A stretch of DNA of 64,000 nt, taken from Fischerella sp. JS2 (lineage in GTDB: Bacteria > Cyanobacteriota > Cyanobacteriia > Cyanobacteriales > Nostocaceae). Of the stretch, positions 24,612 to 47,087 are shown piece by piece; the first letter of the stretch is position 1, and each line of letters opens with the position of its first letter. Below the pieces are notes generated by a model that was not told the origin of the DNA, searched no databases, and saw only the letters and a program-made list of their open reading frames with translations. The stretch is taken from the NCBI RefSeq assembly GCF_032393985.1, contig NZ_CP135918.1:3720001-3784000 (forward strand), given 5' to 3'. A program made the translations under genes and the position numbers.

Positions 24612-27527
24612 ATGTGTAAGACTGATCGCAACTACGAACCTATGCTAAGTACAGATGATACCCAATCCCCTCTGCAATCGCAGCATCGTCAAGATTTGCT
24701 GCATCGAATCACATTAAGGATTCGCCAGTCACTGGAGTTACAGGAAATTCTAGAAACGACTGCGGCAGAAGTGCGATCGCTATTAGAAACAGATCGCGTC
24801 AAAATTTATCGATTTCATGCGGATGGGAGTGGTGAGGTAATCGCCGAATCAATTCATGGCGATCGCCTACCTTCACTTTTGGGTTTGAATTTTCCAGCTG
24901 ATGATATTCCGCCCTATGCGCGCGAACTCTTCATCAAATCGCGTCAGCGTGTTGTTGTTGATATAGTTGCCCAAACAACAACAGGCATGGGCTTAATAGA
25001 ATATCTAAACCAATCCACCACACAAGAACCAGAACAGCAGTTGCGCTATCGTCCTGTTGATCCTTGTCATGTGGAATATTTAACAGCAATGGGGGTGCGC
25101 TCATCAGTCGTAGTCCCTATTGTGCATGATCATCGCCTCTGGGGTCTGTTAGTATCACATCACTCCCAGCAGCGTCATGTCAGCGAAGCCGAACTGCAAT
25201 TTATTCAAGCTGTTACCGATCAAGTTGAAGTGGCGATCGCTCAATCAACCTTGCTGAGCCAAATGCGCGAACAGGCAGAAAGAGAAGCTAAAGTCAATCA
25301 ACTTACCACCGTGTTACATCGTTTACCAACCGTGCAACTCCAAGCTGCTTTGGAAACAGTAATGGAAATTTTTCAAGCATCGGGTGGACGACTATATTTA
25401 ATGTCTGAAACAGCCGATCAAGCTGATCAATTTTACGTGTGTGGTGAACAGCCTACCGAACTAGTCAACGGTGGTGGACGGCAAATTGAACAACATTTAC
25501 TTTGGCAGCAATACCTGCGATCGCCTGGTCAGGAGATTTGCAAAGTTGCAGCAACTCAAGATTCGGGGCAAGAACTGTGGTCAGCACAGCAGATGCAGTC
25601 AATGTACCTGTCTGGGAGTGAACGCCCCAATCCTAACTGCTGGGCAATTAACGACATTTACCAAGAACCCATCTTTCGCACGATTGTCACTTCCTTTGCG
25701 TCCACCCAAGTCCGAGGTTTGTTGATTGTCCCCTTACGCTATGGTAAGCAAGCGATTGGCTGTCTTACTGTTTTCCGTAACGAAATTGAAACAGAACGGC
25801 TATGGGCAGGGCGTTGTGACAACGACACCCGACAAATCATGACGCAAATCTCATTTGAGACTTGGCGAGAACTTAGGCGCGGACAGGCAAAACCCTGGAC
25901 TGAAAATGAGAAGAAACTCGCTGAGGTGATTGCGGGCCATTTAGTCATGGCAGTACAGCAATATCGCCTATATAGCCAAGTGCAATCGCTCAATGCTAAT
26001 CTGGAACGACAGGTAGAAGAACGCACAGCCGAACTACAACATCTGTTAGAACAACAACAAGCTCTTTCCAACGGAATTGCTAAAATTCGCGCTTCGCTCA
26101 AACTAGGTGAAATTTTCCAAACTACGACCGAAGAAGTGTATCGGCTGTTGCAAGTTGATCGTGTAGTGATCTATCAGTTCAATCCAGACTGGAGTGGTGG
26201 CTTTGTTGCCGAGGCTGTTGGAGAGAATTGGACTAGCCTGCGGCAAGTCCAAACCACTAATAAACATATCCAAACTTACATATCACGAAGCGATCGCTGT
26301 ATTGTCAGTAGCTTTATAGATGCACCTGTTCCCAACATTGATACCTATCTCCAGGAAACCCAAGGAGGAGATTTTAGCCAAAGTCGTGCAGTCAAACGGG
26401 TTGATGATGTTGATGCTATGAACTTTCCAGACTGCTATCGAGCAGTGCTGCAACAATTCCACTGCCAGGCATACGTGATTGTTCCCATTTTCCAAGCAGA
26501 CAATTTATGGGGACTACTGGCAGTTTACCAAAATTCTGGTCCTCGCCAATGGAAAGATATAGACATTGCCTTAGTGATGCAAACCTCAGATCAATTAGGG
26601 GTTGCTATTCAACAAGCAGAACTCTTGGAACAAACTCAATCGCGAACTCAGCAGTTAACTAAAACCCTAGAAGACCTAAAACAGACCCAAACCCAACTGG
26701 TACAAACTGAAAAAATGTCTAGTCTTGGACAATTGGTGGCTGGTGTTGCCCATGAGATCAACAACCCTATCAACTTTATTTATGGCAATGTTATCCATGC
26801 TACAGAATATATCCAGCAATTACTAGAGGTGATTCGTCTTTATCAACAAAGCTATCCAGAACCAGACACAGAATTACGCACTTACCTGAAAAAGATTGAC
26901 CTAGATTTTATTACAGAAGATTTACCTAATTTACTGTCATCCATGCAAGTTGGTACTGAACGAATTCAGGAAATTGTCCAATCTTTGCGTACATTCTCGC
27001 GGCTTGATGAAGCTGAGTTCAAATCTGTGGACATTCATGCAGGTATTGACAGCACACTAATGATTTTAAGCCACCGCCTCAAAGCCCAGCCAAATCGGCA
27101 GGCAATCCAAATCATTAAAGATTACGGTCAATTGCCTTTGGTTGATTGCTATCCAGGTCAACTCAATCAAGTATTTATGAATCTTCTGTCCAATGCAATT
27201 GATGCTTTAGAAGAACACAGCAACCAAAGATCACCCGAACACAAATACACCAGCCAAATTAAAATCAGCACCCGTGTGATTGCCGAACAACAGGTTCGGA
27301 TTTGCATTGCTGACAACGGTATTGGCATGAGTGAAAGTGTGCGATCGTGTCTGTTTAACCCCTTCTTCACAACTAAACCCATAGGTAAAGGTACAGGTTT
27401 GGGCTTATCTATTAGTTACCAAATCATCACTGATGGACACAAGGGAAAACTCTCCTGCCAATCTACTCCAGGCAAAGGTACAGAATTTACGATCAATATT
27501 CCAATTCGGCACTCTTCTAAACTTTGA
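24612..27527 (+). CDS. Cph2-like (knotless) phytochrome hybrid: GAF-PHY-GAF histidine kinase
   Basis: 971-aa soluble light-sensing histidine kinase. GAF1 (about 30-205) has NFPADDIPPYARELF and the bilin-anchoring Cys152-His153 in DPCHVEYLTAMGVRSS. The next domain (about 225-445) carries a PHY tongue: WAGR at 398 and, about 20 residues on, ISFETWRE. With no N-terminal PAS domain this is a group II, Cph2-type photosensor. GAF3 (about 475-680) has Cys608 but Tyr609 where His is normal. A linker coiled coil leads to HisKA (His714 in GVAHEINNP) and HATPase_c (N box NQVFMNLLSNAIDAL, G1 DNGIGM, G2 GKGTGLGLSIS). No response regulator is adjacent. Kinase motifs are intact. Bilin type and photocycle are not predictable here. 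Confidence 0.88.
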   Translation: MCKTDRNYEPMLSTDDTQSPLQSQHRQDLLHRITLRIRQSLELQEILETTAAEVRSLLETDRVKIYRFHADGSGEVIAESIHGDRLPSLLGLNFPADDIPPYARELFIKSRQRVVVDIVAQTTTGMGLIEYLNQSTTQEPEQQLRYRPVDPCHVEYLTAMGVRSSVVVPIVHDHRLWGLLVSHHSQQRHVSEAELQFIQAVTDQVEVAIAQSTLLSQMREQAEREAKVNQLTTVLHRLPTVQLQAALETVMEIFQASGGRLYLMSETADQADQFYVCGEQPTELVNGGGRQIEQHLLWQQYLRSPGQEICKVAATQDSGQELWSAQQMQSMYLSGSERPNPNCWAINDIYQEPIFRTIVTSFASTQVRGLLIVPLRYGKQAIGCLTVFRNEIETERLWAGRCDNDTRQIMTQISFETWRELRRGQAKPWTENEKKLAEVIAGHLVMAVQQYRLYSQVQSLNANLERQVEERTAELQHLLEQQQALSNGIAKIRASLKLGEIFQTTTEEVYRLLQVDRVVIYQFNPDWSGGFVAEAVGENWTSLRQVQTTNKHIQTYISRSDRCIVSSFIDAPVPNIDTYLQETQGGDFSQSRAVKRVDDVDAMNFPDCYRAVLQQFHCQAYVIVPIFQADNLWGLLAVYQNSGPRQWKDIDIALVMQTSDQLGVAIQQAELLEQTQSRTQQLTKTLEDLKQTQTQLVQTEKMSSLGQLVAGVAHEINNPINFIYGNVIHATEYIQQLLEVIRLYQQSYPEPDTELRTYLKKIDLDFITEDLPNLLSSMQVGTERIQEIVQSLRTFSRLDEAEFKSVDIHAGIDSTLMILSHRLKAQPNRQAIQIIKDYGQLPLVDCYPGQLNQVFMNLLSNAIDALEEHSNQRSPEHKYTSQIKISTRVIAEQQVRICIADNGIGMSESVRSCLFNPFFTTKPIGKGTGLGLSISYQIITDGHKGKLSCQSTPGKGTEFTINIPIRHSSKL

Positions 27528-39985: not shown

Positions 39986-40201
39986 TCATATGTCCTCTTT
40001 AGCCTTCTTTGTTTTGGAGGTTTTTGGTTTTTCTGGAAACTCACCACTTTCTTTAGCTTGTCTGATACCAATTTCAATCAAAAAAGCTGCCAGGTTAGCT
40101 GTTGGCCTGCCTTGTATATCTGCCAACACCTCTAAATCTTCAAATACTGAGTCCGGGAGAGTTACTGTAAATCGTTTGCTCACGTCATCACTCATCATCA
40201 C
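39986..40201 (-). CDS. Ribbon-helix-helix (CopG-like) DNA-binding protein
   Basis: 71 aa. Residues 8-45 match an RHH fold: the DNA-contacting strand KRFTVTLP, then helix A VFEDLEVLADIQGR and helix B TANLAAFLIEIGIRQAKE. The tail is Lys/Pro rich. It could repress its own promoter as a dimer. The start has three consecutive ATGs (40201, 40198, 40195), and the initiating one cannot be fixed. No toxin partner is adjacent. Confidence 0.75.
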   Translation of the reverse strand: MMMSDDVSKRFTVTLPDSVFEDLEVLADIQGRPTANLAAFLIEIGIRQAKESGEFPEKPKTSKTKKAKEDI

Positions 40202-40270: not shown

Positions 40271-40299
40271 TTGCAATAAAATGCAGATTCAGTTATAAT
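40271..40299 (+). promoter_or_regulatory. Sigma70-type promoter of the first 56-aa unit
   Basis: TTGCAA (40271-40276), exactly 17 bases, then TATAAT (40294-40299). Transcription would start near 40306 and read through the leader of the first small gene. Confidence 0.6.
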
Positions 40300-40333
40300 A
40301 TGAAAAAGTTGCAGTGTTATGGCTGTAACAAAA

Positions 40334-40383
40334 GAAAAAGCGATCGCTCTTGTGGCGTTAACCAGAAAAGCGATCGCTTTTTC
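40334..40383 (+). terminator. HIP1-based hairpin with T-run (possible attenuator)
   Basis: A perfect 15-bp stem: GAAAAAGCGATCGCT (40334-40348) with AGCGATCGCTTTTTC (40369-40383), 20-nt loop. It ends in five T, so it resembles an intrinsic terminator, placed between the promoter at 40271 and the gene at 40456. Confidence 0.55.
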
Positions 40384-40389
40384 AAACGC

Positions 40390-40450
40390 CCCCAGTGCTG
40401 GGAACACTGGGGACTTCCCAACCAACAGACAGGCCTGTAGGAGGGCATTA
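40390..40450 (+). ncRNA. Structured leader of small gene 1 (copy 1)
   Basis: Hairpin CCCCAGTG...CACTGGGG, then GGACTTCCCAACCAACAGA, then an ACAG/CTGT mini-stem ending directly at the Shine-Dalgarno AGGAGGG. The same layout recurs at 41465-41524 with compensatory stem changes, which supports a folded RNA. Confidence 0.6.
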
Positions 40451-40455
40451 ATATT

Positions 40456-40626
40456 ATGTCAGTAAGCAGCAAAGAAGTGTTTGTTCCAGAAGTAATAGAC
40501 TTAAAAGCTAGTGAGGATAAAACTTCTGGAAGAATACATAAGCATATGTTAGCAAGAGCAAAAATGCTTACAAGTTTGCTTCACCTACAGATATCACTGA
40601 TGTCAGAAAATGCTGAGTTCTATTAA
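40456..40626 (+). CDS. Unrecognised 56-aa protein, copy 1
   Basis: 56 aa from ATG 40456, with Shine-Dalgarno TAGGAGGG about ten bases upstream. It reads MSVSSKEVFVPEVIDLKASE, then a basic helix GRIHKHMLARAKMLTSLLHL and QISLMSENAEFY. It is 39/56 identical to copy 2 at 41531 and has the same length. Differences fall largely at variable positions, while EVFVPEV, DLKAS, KHMLA and AKMLT stay fixed, so the frame is under protein-level selection. Small, basic, helical: a DNA/RNA-binding or regulatory role is possible but unproven. A terminator follows at 40664. Confidence 0.72.
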   Translation: MSVSSKEVFVPEVIDLKASEDKTSGRIHKHMLARAKMLTSLLHLQISLMSENAEFY

Positions 40627-40663
40627 CTAGACTTAGCATACGTTTCTTGCACAGTGAAGTTTT

Positions 40664-40688
40664 GTGGTAGTCAATTACTTGCTACCAC
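40664..40688 (+). terminator. Terminator of small gene 1
   Basis: GTGGTAG (40664-40670) pairs with CTACCAC (40682-40688) around an 11-nt loop TCAATTACTTG, followed by TTTCTTG. The loop is the reverse complement of that in copy 2. Confidence 0.65.
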
Positions 40689-41096
40689 TTTCTTGTCCTG
40701 TTTCAATCTCTCATATCCACATATGAAGTAATTCTTGCTATGTATTTGCTAGTTGTTGAACAGTCAAACAATTTTAGATTTTAGATTTTGGATTGACTCT
40801 AGGGATAAATCGGCTTTCTTGTAACATCAAAAAATCATTGGTCAAAATTTTAAGCACAACATCCCGCCCTCAAATAAATTTGGGGCTAATAGCTTAAGTC
40901 TACTAAAGTAGACTAATTTTGATCATTGAGTCATCCTAAGATAACTTTGTACTATCAGCTTTTAGATCTTAATCCTTAACTATTTTTGAGAATGGGATAA
41001 AATTCTCACGGGGAATTACACCCCCAACGAGGAATGAAAATCTCTTGCCCAATCCCCAGTCCCTTTTTCAAGATATTCATCATGGTTTTTATTAGT
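40689..41096. other. Intergenic region between copy 1 and the RHH-like gene
   Basis: About 400 bp, AT-rich, with the dispersed motif AATTTTAGATTTTAGATTTT near 40769 (also at 53489). No gene seen. Confidence 0.4.
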
Positions 41097-41351
41097 TTAT
41101 TTTTCTAACTGTTTTTTGATTCTTTCTCGCAGGTGTTTGTTGACTAGTCGCTTATTGCTACCTTCAGCATGAACTGCAAATCCTTTCTCCCAAAATATCC
41201 GGTGCAATTCTGCTGGCTTCCAACCCTCGGCTTCTGCTAACTCTAAAGCTTCTTGATAAAGGGCTTCTGGTACAGAAAAATCTATTCTGATCATTCTAGG
41301 TGCGTTAGTCCCTGGCATGGTTACTTGAATTTGAACACTCTCTGTTTCCAT
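41097..41351 (-). CDS. Small RHH-like regulator candidate
   Basis: 84 aa from ATG 41351. A beta-strand-like RMIRIDFSVP is followed by two helices, EALYQEALELAEAEGWKP and AELHRIFWEKGFAVHAEGSNKR, the strand-helix-helix order of ribbon-helix-helix proteins. A basic tail ends the protein (HLRERIKKQLEK). Its promoter lies inside a 15-bp inverted repeat (41360-41416), as expected for an autoregulator. The open frame starts at 41384, but the upstream residues lie inside the inverted repeat. It sits between the two 56-aa units in the opposite direction. RHH membership is a likely but unproven reading. Confidence 0.6.
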   Translation of the reverse strand: METESVQIQVTMPGTNAPRMIRIDFSVPEALYQEALELAEAEGWKPAELHRIFWEKGFAVHAEGSNKRLVNKHLRERIKKQLEK

Positions 41352-41359
41352 AAATTTAA

Positions 41360-41416
41360 ACCCCCTAGTAGTCCTTTTTAACAAGAATTTTATACTATCA
41401 GGGACTACTAAGGGGT
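41360..41416 (-). promoter_or_regulatory. Operator-like inverted repeat around a -10 element
   Basis: Arms ACCCCCTAGTAGTCC (41360-41374) and GGACTACTAAGGGGT (41402-41416) match in 14 of 15 positions as an inverted repeat. On the minus strand they enclose TATAAAAT. A repressor bound to both arms would cover the promoter of the 84-aa gene. Confidence 0.6.
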
Positions 41417-41464
41417 TACTATGGGGCAGGTACTCACTTTTTGGGTAGAATTATAGTTAGTACC

Positions 41465-41524
41465 TCCGGTGCTAGCACACCGGGGGACTTCCCAACCAAC
41501 AGATACAGCCTGTAGGAGGGCATT
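41465..41524 (+). ncRNA. Structured leader of small gene 2 (copy 2)
   Basis: CCGGTG...CACCGG hairpin, then GGACTTCCCAACCAACAGA and ACAG...CTGT before AGGAGGG. The stem pairs differ from copy 1 (A-T to G-C) yet pairing is kept. Confidence 0.6.
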
Positions 41525-41530
41525 AACATT

Positions 41531-41701
41531 ATGTTAGTAAGCAGCAATAAAGTGTTTGTTCCAGAAGTAAGGGACTTAAAAGCTAGTAACTACAAAGCGA
41601 CTGGAAGAATGCGTAAGCATATGTTGGCAAAAGCAAAAATGCTTACAGATTTGCTTCACCTTCAAATTTTTTTAACTTCAGAAAATGTTGAGTCTGGTTA
41701 G
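41531..41701 (+). CDS. Unrecognised 56-aa protein, copy 2
   Basis: 56 aa from ATG 41531, preceded by the same TAGGAGGGCATTAA as copy 1. It reads MLVSSNKVFVPEVRDLKASN, then GRMRKHMLAKAKMLTDLLHL and QIFLTSENVESG. Same length as copy 1, 70% identical, with the same C-terminal SEN motif. Copy 2 lacks the HIP1 hairpin upstream. Its 3' UTR shares CATACGTTTCTTGCACAGTG with copy 1. The CRISPR array begins about 480 bp downstream. I do not recognise the family. Confidence 0.72.
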   Translation: MLVSSNKVFVPEVRDLKASNYKATGRMRKHMLAKAKMLTDLLHLQIFLTSENVESG

Positions 41702-41740
41702 TAGAACTCAACATACGTTTCTTGCACAGTGAACCGTTCT

Positions 41741-41765
41741 GTGGTAGTAAGTAATTGACTACCAC
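41741..41765 (+). terminator. Terminator of small gene 2
   Basis: GTGGTAGT (41741-41748) pairs with ACTACCAC (41758-41765), 9-nt loop, followed by TTTTTTG. A strong intrinsic terminator. Confidence 0.8.
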
Positions 41766-41776
41766 TTTTTTGTGTT

Positions 41777-42184: not shown

Positions 42185-45100
42185 TTTTCAATCCCTAATA
42201 GGGATTTATTTAAGTTGCAACAAAGGAGCATTTAGAAACAGCGATCGCATTATCTCGTTTCAATCCCTAATAGGGATTTATTTAAGTTGCAACCCTAGTC
42301 AGTGTGGTGGCTGACCAAGGCAATGGTGTTTCAATCCCTAATAGGGATTTATTTAAGTTGCAACCTCGTTTGTCAACCCCCTCCACAGGCCTTTTCCACA
42401 CGTTTCAATCCCTAATAGGGATTTATTTAAGTTGCAACAAAACACAATTTGCCTTCACTACAATACTTCTGGTTTCAATCCCTAATAGGGATTTATTTAA
42501 GTTGCAACTAGTGGTTTGGTCGCAATCTAGCTTTCCTGAAGATTTGTTTCAATCCCTAATAGGGATTTATTTAAGTTGCAACGAGATTTGTATCACCTAC
42601 CGCCCGCCCATAAATAGTGGTTTCAATCCCTAATAGGGATTTATTTAAGTTGCAACTTTGAGCGGTCGCAAAAGCGCAAGGGTCACAGCCTACCTGGTTT
42701 CAATCCCTAATAGGGATTTATTTAAGTTGCAACCTGGTATCTCAGCATGGATTCAGGATTCAGCGCTGTTTCAATCCCTAATAGGGATTTATTTAAGTTG
42801 CAACATGTGAGCAGGTCGAACTCATGGAACAAGTACTGTTTCAATCCCTAATAGGGATTTATTTAAGTTGCAACTTAAGCATTATGTAGTTGGCGATCGC
42901 GCCCTACTAGAAGAGTTTCAATCCCTAATAGGGATTTATTTAAGTTGCAACTTCAGATTTGAAGCCTGAACACGCTAAAGATGCTGTTTCAATCCCTAAT
43001 AGGGATTTATTTAAGTTGCAACGTTTTGGTGCTATGCGTACTCAATTTAGAGAAGCATTGTTTCAATCCCTAATAGGGATTTATTTAAGTTGCAACAATT
43101 GGGATACAAGAAGCAATACAAGAAACTCCTGTTTCAATCCCTAATAGGGATTTATTTAAGTTGCAACTACAATGCAGAGCGTCACTTTTATGCACGTAGT
43201 TTCAATCCCTAATAGGGATTTATTTAAGTTGCAACTAATTGGTTAGTTCGTATACGTATGTGTTTATTAAGTTTCAATCCCTAATAGGGATTTATTTAAG
43301 TTGCAACTTTACGACGCCACTACCAAACAACGATACAGGGCGTTTCAATCCCTAATAGGGATTTATTTAAGTTGCAACTTTGCATCCTGACAGCGATAGC
43401 TTTGCTAGCCGTTTCAATCCTTAATAGGGATTTATTTAAGTTGCAACTTTATCGGGCGATCGCTCCTCCTTTAAAAAAGCGCTGTTTCAATCCCTAATAG
43501 GGATTTATTTAAGTTGCAACTTATTAGCTGAGTATCCTTCCTTAGTAAATAGGGGTTTCAATCCCTAATAGGGATTTATTTAAGTTGCAACGGAGTGTCA
43601 ATGTCGTCAAATTCCATCTGTATCTGTCGTTTCAATCCCTAATAGGGATTTATTTAAGTTGCAACCCTATTGAAGTCAGGCATTTTGATAGCCGCGTTGT
43701 TTCAATCCCTAATAGGGATTTATTTAAGTTGCAACGCCCTCGGTCTGATTGCTGCCCCAGCTTCTACGACGTTTCAATCCCTAATAGGGATTTATTTAAG
43801 TTGCAACCAAAGTAGAAGGCAAAGTCCTGACCAAAAGGCGAGTTTCAATCCCTAATAGGGATTTATTTAAGTTGCAACAGGATTAATTAAATGTTGTTGA
43901 CACCCATAATTAGTTTCAATCCCTAATAGGGATTTATTTAAGTTGCAACCCCATTGTATTTGTGAAATACAATTTTTACGGGTTTCAATCCCTAATAGGG
44001 ATTTATTTAAGTTGCAACTCTGTGGCAAAGAAGTTAAGAAAAGCCTCAGTACTAGGTTTCAATCCCTAATAGGGATTTATTTAAGTTGCAACGTGACGCT
44101 TCCAGAGGGTTCCATCGTCTTTGGTATAGTTTCAATCCCTAATAGGGATTTATTTAAGTTGCAACGCATAAGTGGTTTACCGTTTTTGTCTAATACTGGG
44201 TTTCAATCCCTAATAGGGATTTATTTAAGTTGCAACAAGAGTGATCGCAACGGTAGTGGAATATCTAGGGGCGCTTTGTTTCAATCCCTAATAGGGATTT
44301 ATTTAAGTTGCAACGATTACTGCGTGTTGCCTATAATCAAAGCCTAGTTGTTTCAATCCCTAATAGGGATTTATTTAAGTTGCAACGAGTTTAAGCTGAG
44401 AGACGAAAACGTTAGCTGTTCTGTTTCAATCCCTAATAGGGATTTATTTAAGTTGCAACAAATAAACCACACTCACATGAGAACCGCTTACCAAGTTTCA
44501 ATCCCTAATAGGGATTTATTTAAGTTGCAACTGCGTAAGCATCAGAGTCGGGAGTATGTCACGCGGGGTTTCAATCCCTAATAGGGATTTATTTAAGTTG
44601 CAACGTGTTGCCGCAGATCCAATGCGAACATGAACCGCGTTTCAATCCCTAATAGGGATTTATTTAAGTTGCAACTTGATGCAGCATTGATAACCTCATC
44701 TTTGACAAAAGTCCCCGTTTCAATCCCTAATAGGGATTTATTTAAGTTGCAACTCACCTCAGTTACCGCTTCACTAAAGCTCATAACGTTTCAATCCCTA
44801 ATAGGGATTTATTTAAGTTGCAACGAGACTCGTTTTGGAGCAGTCTCTTGAGACTTTAGGGTTTCAATCCCTAATAGGGATTTATTTAAGTTGCAACGCA
44901 CTGGGCGCGGTCAAGCAGTTAATTGGCGCTGTTTCAATCCCTAATAGGGATTTATTTAAGTTGTAACCTGTCCAGCCTCCTATGGCTTCTGGGTCTAAAT
45001 AAGCGTCGGGTTTCAATCCCTAATAGGGATTTATTTAAGTTGCAACCAACTGCTGAGAGAAACAAAGGAAGTGAGAGTTTGTTTCAATCCCTAATAGGGA

Positions 45101-47087
45101 TTTATTTAAGTTGCAACTTTATTCGGACTTAAAAGGATTAATCCTTCAAAAAATCAATGTTTCAATCCCTAATAGGGATTTATTTAAGTTGCAACTTTTT
45201 AGGTAATCTCGGAACAATAGCGGAGAAAGATTGGTTTCAATCCCTAATAGGGATTTATTTAAGTTGCAACTCCAAATTCAGCTAACCAAACGCGCAAAAG
45301 AGGAGTTTCAATCCCTAATAGGGATTTATTTAAGTTGCAACGAGTAATCAAGTTTTTGACCTAGCAAAGATTACCAAGTTTCAATCCCTAATAGGGATTT
45401 ATTTAAGTTGCAACTGGGTGTCATCGAACCCTCATTGGGGATGCTCCAAGGTTTCAATCCCTAATAGGGATTTATTTAAGTTGCAACCTATCATCCTGGT
45501 TATCTGTCACCAGGTTAAGGACTGTTTCAATCCCTAATAGGGATTTATTTAAGTTGCAACGCTAGCCGACTGCTGGATGACAGCCCTGCTCATGCTGTTT
45601 CAATCCCTAATAGGGATTTATTTAAGTTGCAACTTATTAACTTTATTGTCTCGCCCCTAGATGCCCTTGTTTCAATCCCTAATAGTGATTTATTTAAGTT
45701 GCAACTTCACTGTAGTTTCAGACTTCTAAACGAGTTGTTATCGTTTCAATCCCTAATAGGGATTTATTTAAGTTGCAACTCATGTTCACTTGCTGATTCA
45801 GTACACGCCTCAAACTGGTTTCAATCCCTAATAGGGATTTATTTAAGTTGCAACCTTACAATTTCGCAGGTAATAGAGCCGAAATCGTTTCAATCCCTAA
45901 TAGGGATTTATTTAAGTTGCAACGCAATGGATTAAAAGATTATTCCGACGAAGAAAACGAGTTTCAATCCCTAATAGGGATTTATTTAAGTTGCAACTCA
46001 ACCGATAATCTTAGTCTTGTTGGATTGCCAGTTTCAATCCCTAATAGGGATTTATTTAAGTTGCAACCAATCATCATCACAAGTGACCACGAAATTAACA
46101 GGTTTCAATCCCTAATAGGGATTTATTTAAGTTGCAACCCTACGTTCATCTACCAGCCAAAAGTATAACCGCCTGTTTCAATCCCTAATAGGGATTTATT
46201 TAAGTTGCAACCATTTAAAACATTTGACGAAACAATAGATTTAATCAGTTTCAATCCCTAATAGGGATTTATTTAAGTTGCAACAATTGAATCGCATTCT
46301 CAATCAATAGCCAAATCAGTGTTTCAATCCCTAATAGGGATTTATTTAAGTTGCAACCAACCCAACTGTTGTAAACGATTGCACCACTTTTGAACGTTTC
46401 AATCCCTAATAGGGATTTATTTAAGTTGCAACCTCAGTAATCCTGGTATCAGCTCTAGTTTGAGCATTATCGTTTCAATCCCTAATAGGGATTTATTTAA
46501 GTTGCAACTTGCGATCGCTCCTTTCATAGACTCGCTGACTAAGTTTCAATCCCTAATAGGGATTTATTTAAGTTGCAACGTCATTTAGTTTAGCATTAGA
46601 TACGGTATAGACCCGTTTCAATCCCTAATAGGGATTTATTTAAGTTGCAACCTCCAGTCACTAGTGAATTCTCAATTAGCCAAGGGTATTGTTTCAATCC
46701 CTAATAGGGATTTATTTAAGTTGCAACTCAATGATAAAGGGAAAGAAAAACCCTACGGAGTTTCAATCCCTAATAGGGATTTATTTAAGTTGCAACTATC
46801 ACTCGTAGGTTCAAATCTGTGTCTATACCTGTTTCAATCCCTAATAGGGATTTATTTAAGTTGCAACTCAGGGTATTTGGAGGAACAGGACAACAAGGTG
46901 ATATGTTTCAATCCCTAATAGGGATTTATTTAAGTTGCAACATTGTCTACTCTCGCATACTAATCTGGGGGCCGTTGTTTCAATCCCTAATAGGGATTTA
47001 TTTAAGTTGCAACATGTGGAACTGAAATTGGTGCTCTGCCATCTCTCCACGTTTCAATCCCTAATAGGGATTTATTTAAGTTGCAAC
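42185..47087 (-). CRISPR. CRISPR array, 68 repeats of 37 bp and 67 spacers
   Basis: The repeat starts GTTTCAATCCC and ends GTTGCAAC on the plus strand, with an internal stem AATCCC/GGGATT. Spacing is 68-79 bp, so spacers are 31-42 bp. I counted 68 starts from 42185 to 47051. Reversed, the repeat ends ATTGAAAC, the usual 8-nt crRNA handle of type I/III systems, so transcription on the minus strand is likely. The leftmost repeat (42185) has a changed first base, which fits the trailer end. Other variants are at 43411 (CCTTAAT), 44931 (TTGTAAC) and 45669 (AGTGAT). No cas genes are in the window, so the subtype is undetermined. Confidence 0.97.

Follow-up and report, generated by a model that had tools for sequence, protein, structure and literature searches.

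The 64,000-nucleotide stretch of Fischerella sp. JS2 DNA analysed here, termed the window (contig NZ_CP135918.1, positions 3,720,001 to 3,784,000), belongs to a genome of 7.02 Mb represented by a single contig. It contains two similar plus-strand units, copy A and copy B, each comprising a structured leader with two hairpins (P1 and P2), a Shine-Dalgarno (SD) sequence, a 56-codon gene and a conserved 3' part, and each preceded by a small divergent gene. The features are as follows.

39986..40201, minus strand: divergent ribbon-helix-helix gene RHH_5 (PF07878) upstream of copy A; Pfam E 1.4e-15.
40388..40455, plus strand: leader RNA of copy A; model match 40388-40458, ATG included.
40390..40412, plus strand: P1 hairpin of copy A, CCCCAGTG / CACTGGGG with a 7-nt loop; from folding, the helix covarying in 57 leaders.
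40417..40445, plus strand: P2 hairpin of copy A, CCC..CC.ACAG / CTGT.GG.GGG, with the SD AGGAGG at 40439-40444; from folding and covariation.
40456..40626, plus strand: 56-aa gene of copy A; open reading frame (ORF).
40637..40690, plus strand: 3' UTR and terminator-like stem of copy A; exact 20-mer common with copy B, stem by eye.
41097..41351, minus strand: divergent small gene of the RMIRIDFSVPEALYQEALELAEAEGW family upstream of copy B; start taken at METESVQ.
41462..41530, plus strand: leader RNA of copy B; model match 41462-41533, ATG included.
41463..41486, plus strand: P1 hairpin of copy B, CCTCCGGTG / CACCGGGGG with a 6-nt loop; from folding and covariation.
41491..41520, plus strand: P2 hairpin of copy B, with the SD AGGAGG at 41514-41519; from folding and covariation.
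41531..41701, plus strand: 56-aa gene of copy B; ORF, paralogue of A, 72% identical over residues 1-54.
41712..41765, plus strand: 3' UTR and terminator-like stem of copy B; exact 20-mer, stem by eye.

The initial annotation had described these as twin units with a shared upstream block, a conserved 3' UTR and a leader stem in which pairing is kept by paired changes, a description that the present analysis reproduces. The start codons of copies A (40456) and B (41531) lie 1075 bp apart, and the two proteins are identical at 39 of 56 residues. The block GGACTTCCCAACCAACAGA is found exactly at 40411-40429 and 41485-41503, with no third site in the window when up to three mismatches are allowed (0.01 expected), and the 20-mer CATACGTTTCTTGCACAGTG is found exactly at 40637-40656 and 41712-41731 (0 expected in the window); as exact repeats against such expectations, both blocks are shared beyond chance. 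The P1 stem reads CCCCAGTG/CACTGGGG in copy A and CCTCCGGTG/CACCGGGGG in copy B, and in both window leaders an ACAG/CTGT mini-stem directly abuts AGGAGGG. The terminators claimed for the two units are present by eye as a GTGGTAG/CTACCAC stem with a T-rich tail and are missing from the output of the terminator scanner, whose limit is exceeded by the loop of this stem. A 3' region like that of copy A also lies behind a small gene in genome G006. Promoter scanning called a sigma-70-like site at 40271-40299, upstream of copy A, and none just upstream of copy B; the three sigma-70-like sites in the scanned stretch are not above the 4.1 found in shuffles. Among 56 leaders, TAnnnT shows no clear pile-up at one distance from the leader start (maximum 6 of 56, with 1.9 expected per position).

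Directly downstream of copy B lies a CRISPR array (42185-47087, minus strand) with 68 CRISPR-DR5 repeats by Rfam, four lower-scoring. Among 96 sources, most with ~1.5 kb of flank, the only large arrays are the window's own, seen in the window and at the same place in L046; a 3-copy repeat is present in L176. The CRISPR neighbourhood to which the initial annotation had drawn attention thus looks incidental.

The leader extends beyond the twin units. By blastn it was found on a plasmid of Fischerella NIES-4106 before a different gene, and in G006 leader and 3' UTR flank another ORF. Three covariance models were used: R1, from three leaders (B, NIES-4106 and G006, with A outside the seed); R2, from 34 leaders with A in the seed; and R3, from 57 leaders with both A and B in the seed. 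Copy A scores 65.3 bits against R1, independently of the seed, 71.5 bits against R2 and E 2.1e-18 per genome with R3, while the values for copy B (96.7 bits against R1; E 1.5e-21 per genome with R3) are high by construction, B being in both seeds. Building and running such a model, as initially suggested, yielded leader matches in family, order and class samples, which overlap and in which the majority of genomes have no match. In the family sample, R1 (E <= 0.01) has matches in 35 of 217 genomes and 20 of 56 genera; in the order sample, R2 (E <= 0.001) has them in 38 of 388 genomes and 27 of 149 genera; in the class sample, the R3 matches fall in 17 of 291 genomes and 14 of 131 genera, with families from outside the order among them. 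Six chosen genomes searched at E <= 1 gave 2, 0, 1, 3, 5 and 5 places, the weakest at chance level, and at the same threshold the window genome holds just two leaders, A and B. Thirty of the 45 R1 places were taken as loci, plus two later (L088, L096), as were 30 of the 52 R2 places, 25 of them new. Duplicates and L116 (weak, no ORF) were dropped before counting; L049 is in alignment A7 and outside the 57-leader gene-context set, which holds L076 instead.

Plasmid-borne leaders occur in Fischerella NIES-4106, Nostoc MS1 and Nostoc UHCC 0302. Two leader matches lie ~160 nt apart on one strand in G060 (G060:C152:24921-25004 and 25163-25229; the second with E 0.0015), possibly a tandem arrangement. 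A motif search with GACTTCCCAACCAACAGA at one mismatch returned an extra match, GACTTCCCAACCAAAAGA, in four genomes inside an apparent coding gene (by eye), which is unrelated. CACCGGAGGACTTCC is present in 38 IMG/VR contigs; the sole R3 match over 43 sources from the viral route was the plasmid locus L076, and a second sequence pattern gave none in viral contigs, as did the phage records. A phage origin of the leader is therefore unsupported, the viral searches being without a leader match.

The leader spans ~70 nt and consists of hairpin P1, an unpaired, nearly invariant ACU joint plus U/A, and hairpin P2. The 5' arm of P2 pairs with the SD bases, with CCC/GGG exchanging with CUC/GAG and CC/GG pairs changing to A-U and U-A, and a 4-bp stem, likewise covarying, closes the top of the hairpin. 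Beyond it, at almost constant spacing, comes the start codon of a small ORF. Nearly invariant unpaired positions are A67, C68 and T69, and also C118, after the SD. Covariation was assessed on 57 leaders (56 distinct) in a model-fitted alignment, which favours the model and includes several near-copies that are not independent. In this set 88.8% of cells pair, against 68.8% in shuffles, and 187 cells carry compensatory changes, against 50.6 +/- 5.2; none of 500 shuffles reaches the observed value on any of five measures, and the signal is lost when the partners are slid. When all column pairs of this fitted alignment are ranked by strength, the first 13 belong to the model; the P2 model pairs 76-115, 81-110, 86-106, 87-105 and 88-104 covary, and pairing of the SD, likewise measured there, is seen in 93.9% of cells for helix 3 and 79.8% for helix 4, with compensatory changes. 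Because a model-fitted alignment favours the model and related leaders are not independent, 56 leaders were realigned with structure-blind MAFFT; among the ~2450 pairs of columns scored, the 8 best under genafpair and the 6 best under globalpair all belong to the model and span P1, the P2 stem and the SD-side helices, with one SD-side pair per list. A lack of covarying pairs among further leaders had been named at the outset as grounds for rejecting the proposal; in the 57 leaders, 17 of 18 base pairs carry compensatory changes. The conserved pairing of the SD with an upstream strand that defines an SD-sequestering leader is thus found.

RNAalifold applied to a first MAFFT alignment of 27 leaders recovered the 4-bp P2 stem and none of the SD pairs, the other helices being out of register in that alignment (by eye). 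Fold z-scores of four single leaders are -1.5 (A), -3.3 (B), -1.8 and -1.7; the folding energy of copy B is unusual, the values of the other three are modest, and 16 of 200 shuffles fold as well as copy A. The SD is predicted to be unpaired at 0.345, against 0.361 in shuffles that keep the SD and the composition (lower in 30 of 57 leaders; Wilcoxon p 0.38). The case for SD occlusion therefore comes from covariation only, since predicted accessibility is no lower than in shuffles. Riboregulated translation, as initially proposed, is plausible, with support from covariation and not from folding energies.

An alternative fold, in which the 5' arm of P1 pairs with the SD, is unsupported by the alignment columns. 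This bears on the reading that the leader is not switched and holds translation at a constant low level or shields the mRNA. No mutually exclusive covarying fold was seen and SD occlusion is moderate, as an unswitched leader would have it, but a conserved joint and an elaborate two-hairpin fold maintained across the class would then seem unneeded, and we consider this reading unlikely. Far less probable is that the conserved block works as DNA, be it an operator, a recombination site or a miniature mobile element, with the RNA fold a by-product of inverted repeats: the repeats themselves and several mobile contexts would fit, but in P2 covariation with the SD spans bulges, and the element runs up to a start codon in the same orientation.

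For 71 of 75 leaders, a start codon no more than 9 nt from the model end opens a frame of 30 codons or more, and in 64 an ATG coincides with the model end; the contig stops within two of the 71 ORFs (L072, L108), and four leaders have no such ORF. The leader ORFs measure 30-175 codons (median 73), while 1026 of 3192 control ATGs (32%) open at least 30 codons; because the model itself includes ATG and SD, a start codon at its end is in part expected by construction, which does not apply to ORF length. Nineteen of 57 directly downstream ORFs fall in one BLAST-linked group of putative, Cro-like helix-turn-helix (HTH) genes, a further HTH ORF situated 1.2-1.4 kb upstream of its leader being uncounted; some of the Cro-like genes are close to integrases or plasmid-borne. 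When 10 downstream proteins were compared with Pfam, that of L053 reached 23.1 bits against the HTH_3 cut-off of 23.0, three gave weak matches below the cut-off and six had no HTH match. The remaining leader genes encode unrelated small proteins, including a YGWxL-type family found across several taxonomic families and, behind leaders L159 and L173, secreted-looking proteins with ANPA..CxTGxGC. Many unrelated genes thus stand behind the leader, while the 56-aa family was seen in one genus only (3 of 100 related genomes, the window's own included), so the leader is not tied to the 56-aa protein. The initial view of the leader as part of a 56-aa gene unit changes accordingly: the leader is more general than the twin genes and precedes many unrelated small genes.

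The secreted-looking family (ANPA..APAxCxTGxGCxLxGxxxxGGxxYYVW) has no Pfam match and is also present without a leader at L090-L095; TnpB-like genes (by eye) adjoin three of its copies (L093, L159, L173). Relatives of its 175-aa gene occur in 4 of 388 genomes, and at six loci of such relatives there is no leader match better than E 0.059. At 10 loci (L052, L054, L056, L061, L062, L064, L065, L069, L076 and L096) the same second gene (MMKEWRNRLF..RTWKRWHELAM) lies ~0.4 kb downstream of leader and small gene. At these loci the gene directly behind the leader varies among dissimilar families, like an exchangeable specificity cassette.

The genes for the 56-aa proteins are 81% identical, and a relative of copy A in Fischerella muscicola PCC 7414 is 94% identical over residues 1-54. 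A dN/dS near 1 had been named as contrary evidence; the ratio is 0.45 between A and B, and comparison with the copy of F. muscicola PCC 7414 gives 0.50 and 0.60; over few sites, these values are mild evidence of purifying selection on the 56-aa genes. Homologues elsewhere, sought by the initial annotation, exist within the single genus; the query matches one locus in GTDB contigs, and none was found in plasmids. As already supposed, the protein has no known family: Pfam gave none and NCBIfam a single chance-level match for copy B (E 0.14), which was disregarded. A third paralogue at G000:C1:1078884 (L003; L006/L007 in two genomes) retains the terminator-like part behind it, has no leader match and no start codon in place, shows a dN/dS of 1.41 over 42 codons and looks decayed.

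The AlphaFold model of the 56-aa protein, with three sequences as input, is a long helix over residues 16-55 (mean pLDDT 75, pTM 0.42), and hydropathy indicates no membrane segment, the maximum 19-residue Kyte-Doolittle means being 1.01 and 0.95. It may act as a small regulator, as first suggested. The tandem copies, very short ORF, structured leader and conserved 3' UTR recall a type I toxin-antitoxin system in which the SD is masked within the mRNA of the toxin, here the 56-aa protein, and an antisense RNA silences that mRNA. We regard this as highly improbable, because with a best 19-residue mean of ~1.0 the product is not a membrane peptide, and the same leader precedes HTH-like and other genes.

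A YRASGR-like motif, encoded by differing codons, recurs in other small genes (relatives): in a 39-aa protein in G006, where it reads RGSSR, in a 36-aa protein in G009, and near the N-terminus of the 175-aa protein in G228 and of a near-copy on plasmid3 of Fischerella NIES-4106. At L073 (1501-1570 and downstream) the core of the secreted family lies in an ORF just behind a 36-aa YRASGR ORF and in a different frame; this may be a disrupted gene. The hosts are heterocyst-forming, which, together with retention of the motif under different codons, would suit a PatS/PatX-like inhibitor of HetR in which KTSGR, KATGR and, in relatives, RASGR replace RG(S/T)GR. PatS, PatX and HetN are, like the 56-aa protein, small proteins with an xxSGR-like motif. 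The RG(S/T)GR pentapeptide itself is absent from the window proteins, which have KTSGR and KATGR instead. Known HetR inhibitors have RG(S/T)GR in common (PMC7761841), and against that pattern position 2 is here T or A, not G. The motif is moreover internal, and the G006 relative departs from it, so that this identity is the most doubtful of those considered.

Divergent genes upstream are a recurrent feature. One of three families lies divergently within 900 nt upstream of 19 of 57 leaders. The RHH_5 gene type of copy A is also divergent upstream of leaders L047 and L048. That of copy B (RIDFSVPEALYQ type), whose window member has no Pfam family (best match E 0.14), is also found upstream of leaders L045 (89%), L050 (85%), L062 and L065. 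At six plasmid loci with this RIDF-type divergent gene of copy B, a leader is present at two (L045, L078) and absent at four (L077, L079, L080, L081). One HTH-type leader locus lies near genes for a phage integrase, a phage lysozyme and a sigma factor; many order- and class-level loci are outside the set typed for mobile context. At L163, a gene ending ~160 nt before the start of the leader gene resembles a plasmid relaxase by eye (DQEHHHIHIIASRIN).

Divergent repressor or cro-like switch regions are known in phages and integrative elements, and the loci described here likewise have a divergent small gene followed by a small HTH-like gene, first in the forward direction. In contrast to such regions, the forward gene here has a structured leader, and the HTH gene is replaceable by unrelated small genes such as that of the 56-aa protein.

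Rfam 15, run on the window at the gathering threshold, returned CRISPR-DR5 only. With E up to 5, nothing matched on the leaders' strand within either window leader; the best match there, below gathering, covers an upstream palindrome on the minus strand (40330-40389) and touches the first two bases of leader A. At 20 other loci (8 searched at E up to 0.5, 12 at E up to 1) no match overlaps a leader, a below-gathering L20_leader match lying 4 nt from the leader in L105. Downstream-peptide RNA (RF01704) and glnA RNA (RF01739) are not among the matches at the window leaders (E up to 5) or at these 20 loci (E up to 0.5 or 1). No description of the element was found in the literature searched, which includes passages of PMC4734099 and in which few subscription journals are represented. 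The leader thus appears to be an RNA family so far unlisted in Rfam and class-wide in cyanobacteria.

RNA thermometers, translational riboswitches and protein-repressed leaders are SD-sequestering leaders, in which the SD, close to the start codon, is taken up in a hairpin. The leader described here likewise has an SD hairpin beside the start codon, although a thermometer would need less than its conserved P1 and ACU joint outside the SD helix. Downstream-peptide RNA and glnA RNA, which are glutamine riboswitches, are found, as is the leader (71 of 75 cases), in front of small cyanobacterial ORFs, the 5' UTR status of the leader being presumed; the likeness is one of working and not of membership, and the new leader differs in having two consecutive hairpins with the SD in the second. 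Downstream-peptide RNA is described as a cyanobacterial 5' element before small ORFs (17-100 aa) of no known family, with mixed gene content (PMC2864571).

The leader could accordingly be a small riboswitch, with P1, the ACU joint and the P2 loop forming a pocket for a metabolite or ion whose binding exposes or masks the SD. The nearly invariant, unpaired A67, C68, T69 and C102 beside covarying helices would suit such a pocket, as would a class-wide spread with unrelated genes, comparable to that of Downstream-peptide RNAs (PMC2864571). However, the conserved unpaired positions are few, the top covarying pairs include no pseudoknot helix, the genes have no common pathway hinting at a ligand, and no Rfam riboswitch matches at the leaders searched. 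We hold this reading to be rather unlikely.

Taken together, the twin units probably belong to a new family of cis-acting leaders that control translation initiation of small, often accessory genes. That the leader acts at translation initiation is inferred from the almost constant spacing of SD and ATG and from covariation in the helix at the SD. In the proposed mechanism, P2 would compete with the ribosome for the SD, while P1 and the joint would be read by a trans-acting factor (protein, RNA or metabolite) that shifts the balance. As the energetic test gave no unusual occlusion, the helix at the SD may act less as a lock than as a metastable competitor. The two leaders of the window would regulate the paralogous 56-aa proteins, each mostly a single helix by prediction, and a divergent small gene lies upstream of each copy (RHH_5 for A). 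The layout of the leader-HTH units in mobile elements of Nostocales suggests that a switch at transcription and a leader acting at translation may be combined in series.

A broader interpretation, which we offer tentatively as a possibility, is that the leader is an orphan sensor RNA of Cyanobacteriia, either a riboswitch of a new class or the RNA on which a single conserved trans regulator acts. Small accessory genes would repeatedly have acquired it, the first gene in the Cro-like switch regions of integrative elements and plasmids among them, such that mobile elements and chromosomal small-protein genes would answer one host signal at translation. If the leader family is upheld, a structured regulatory RNA present in 27 of 149 sampled genera of one order, and also outside it, would have been missing from the public RNA library. 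It would then provide a way into the study of many small genes that lack annotation, and of the timing of early genes in cyanobacterial mobile elements.
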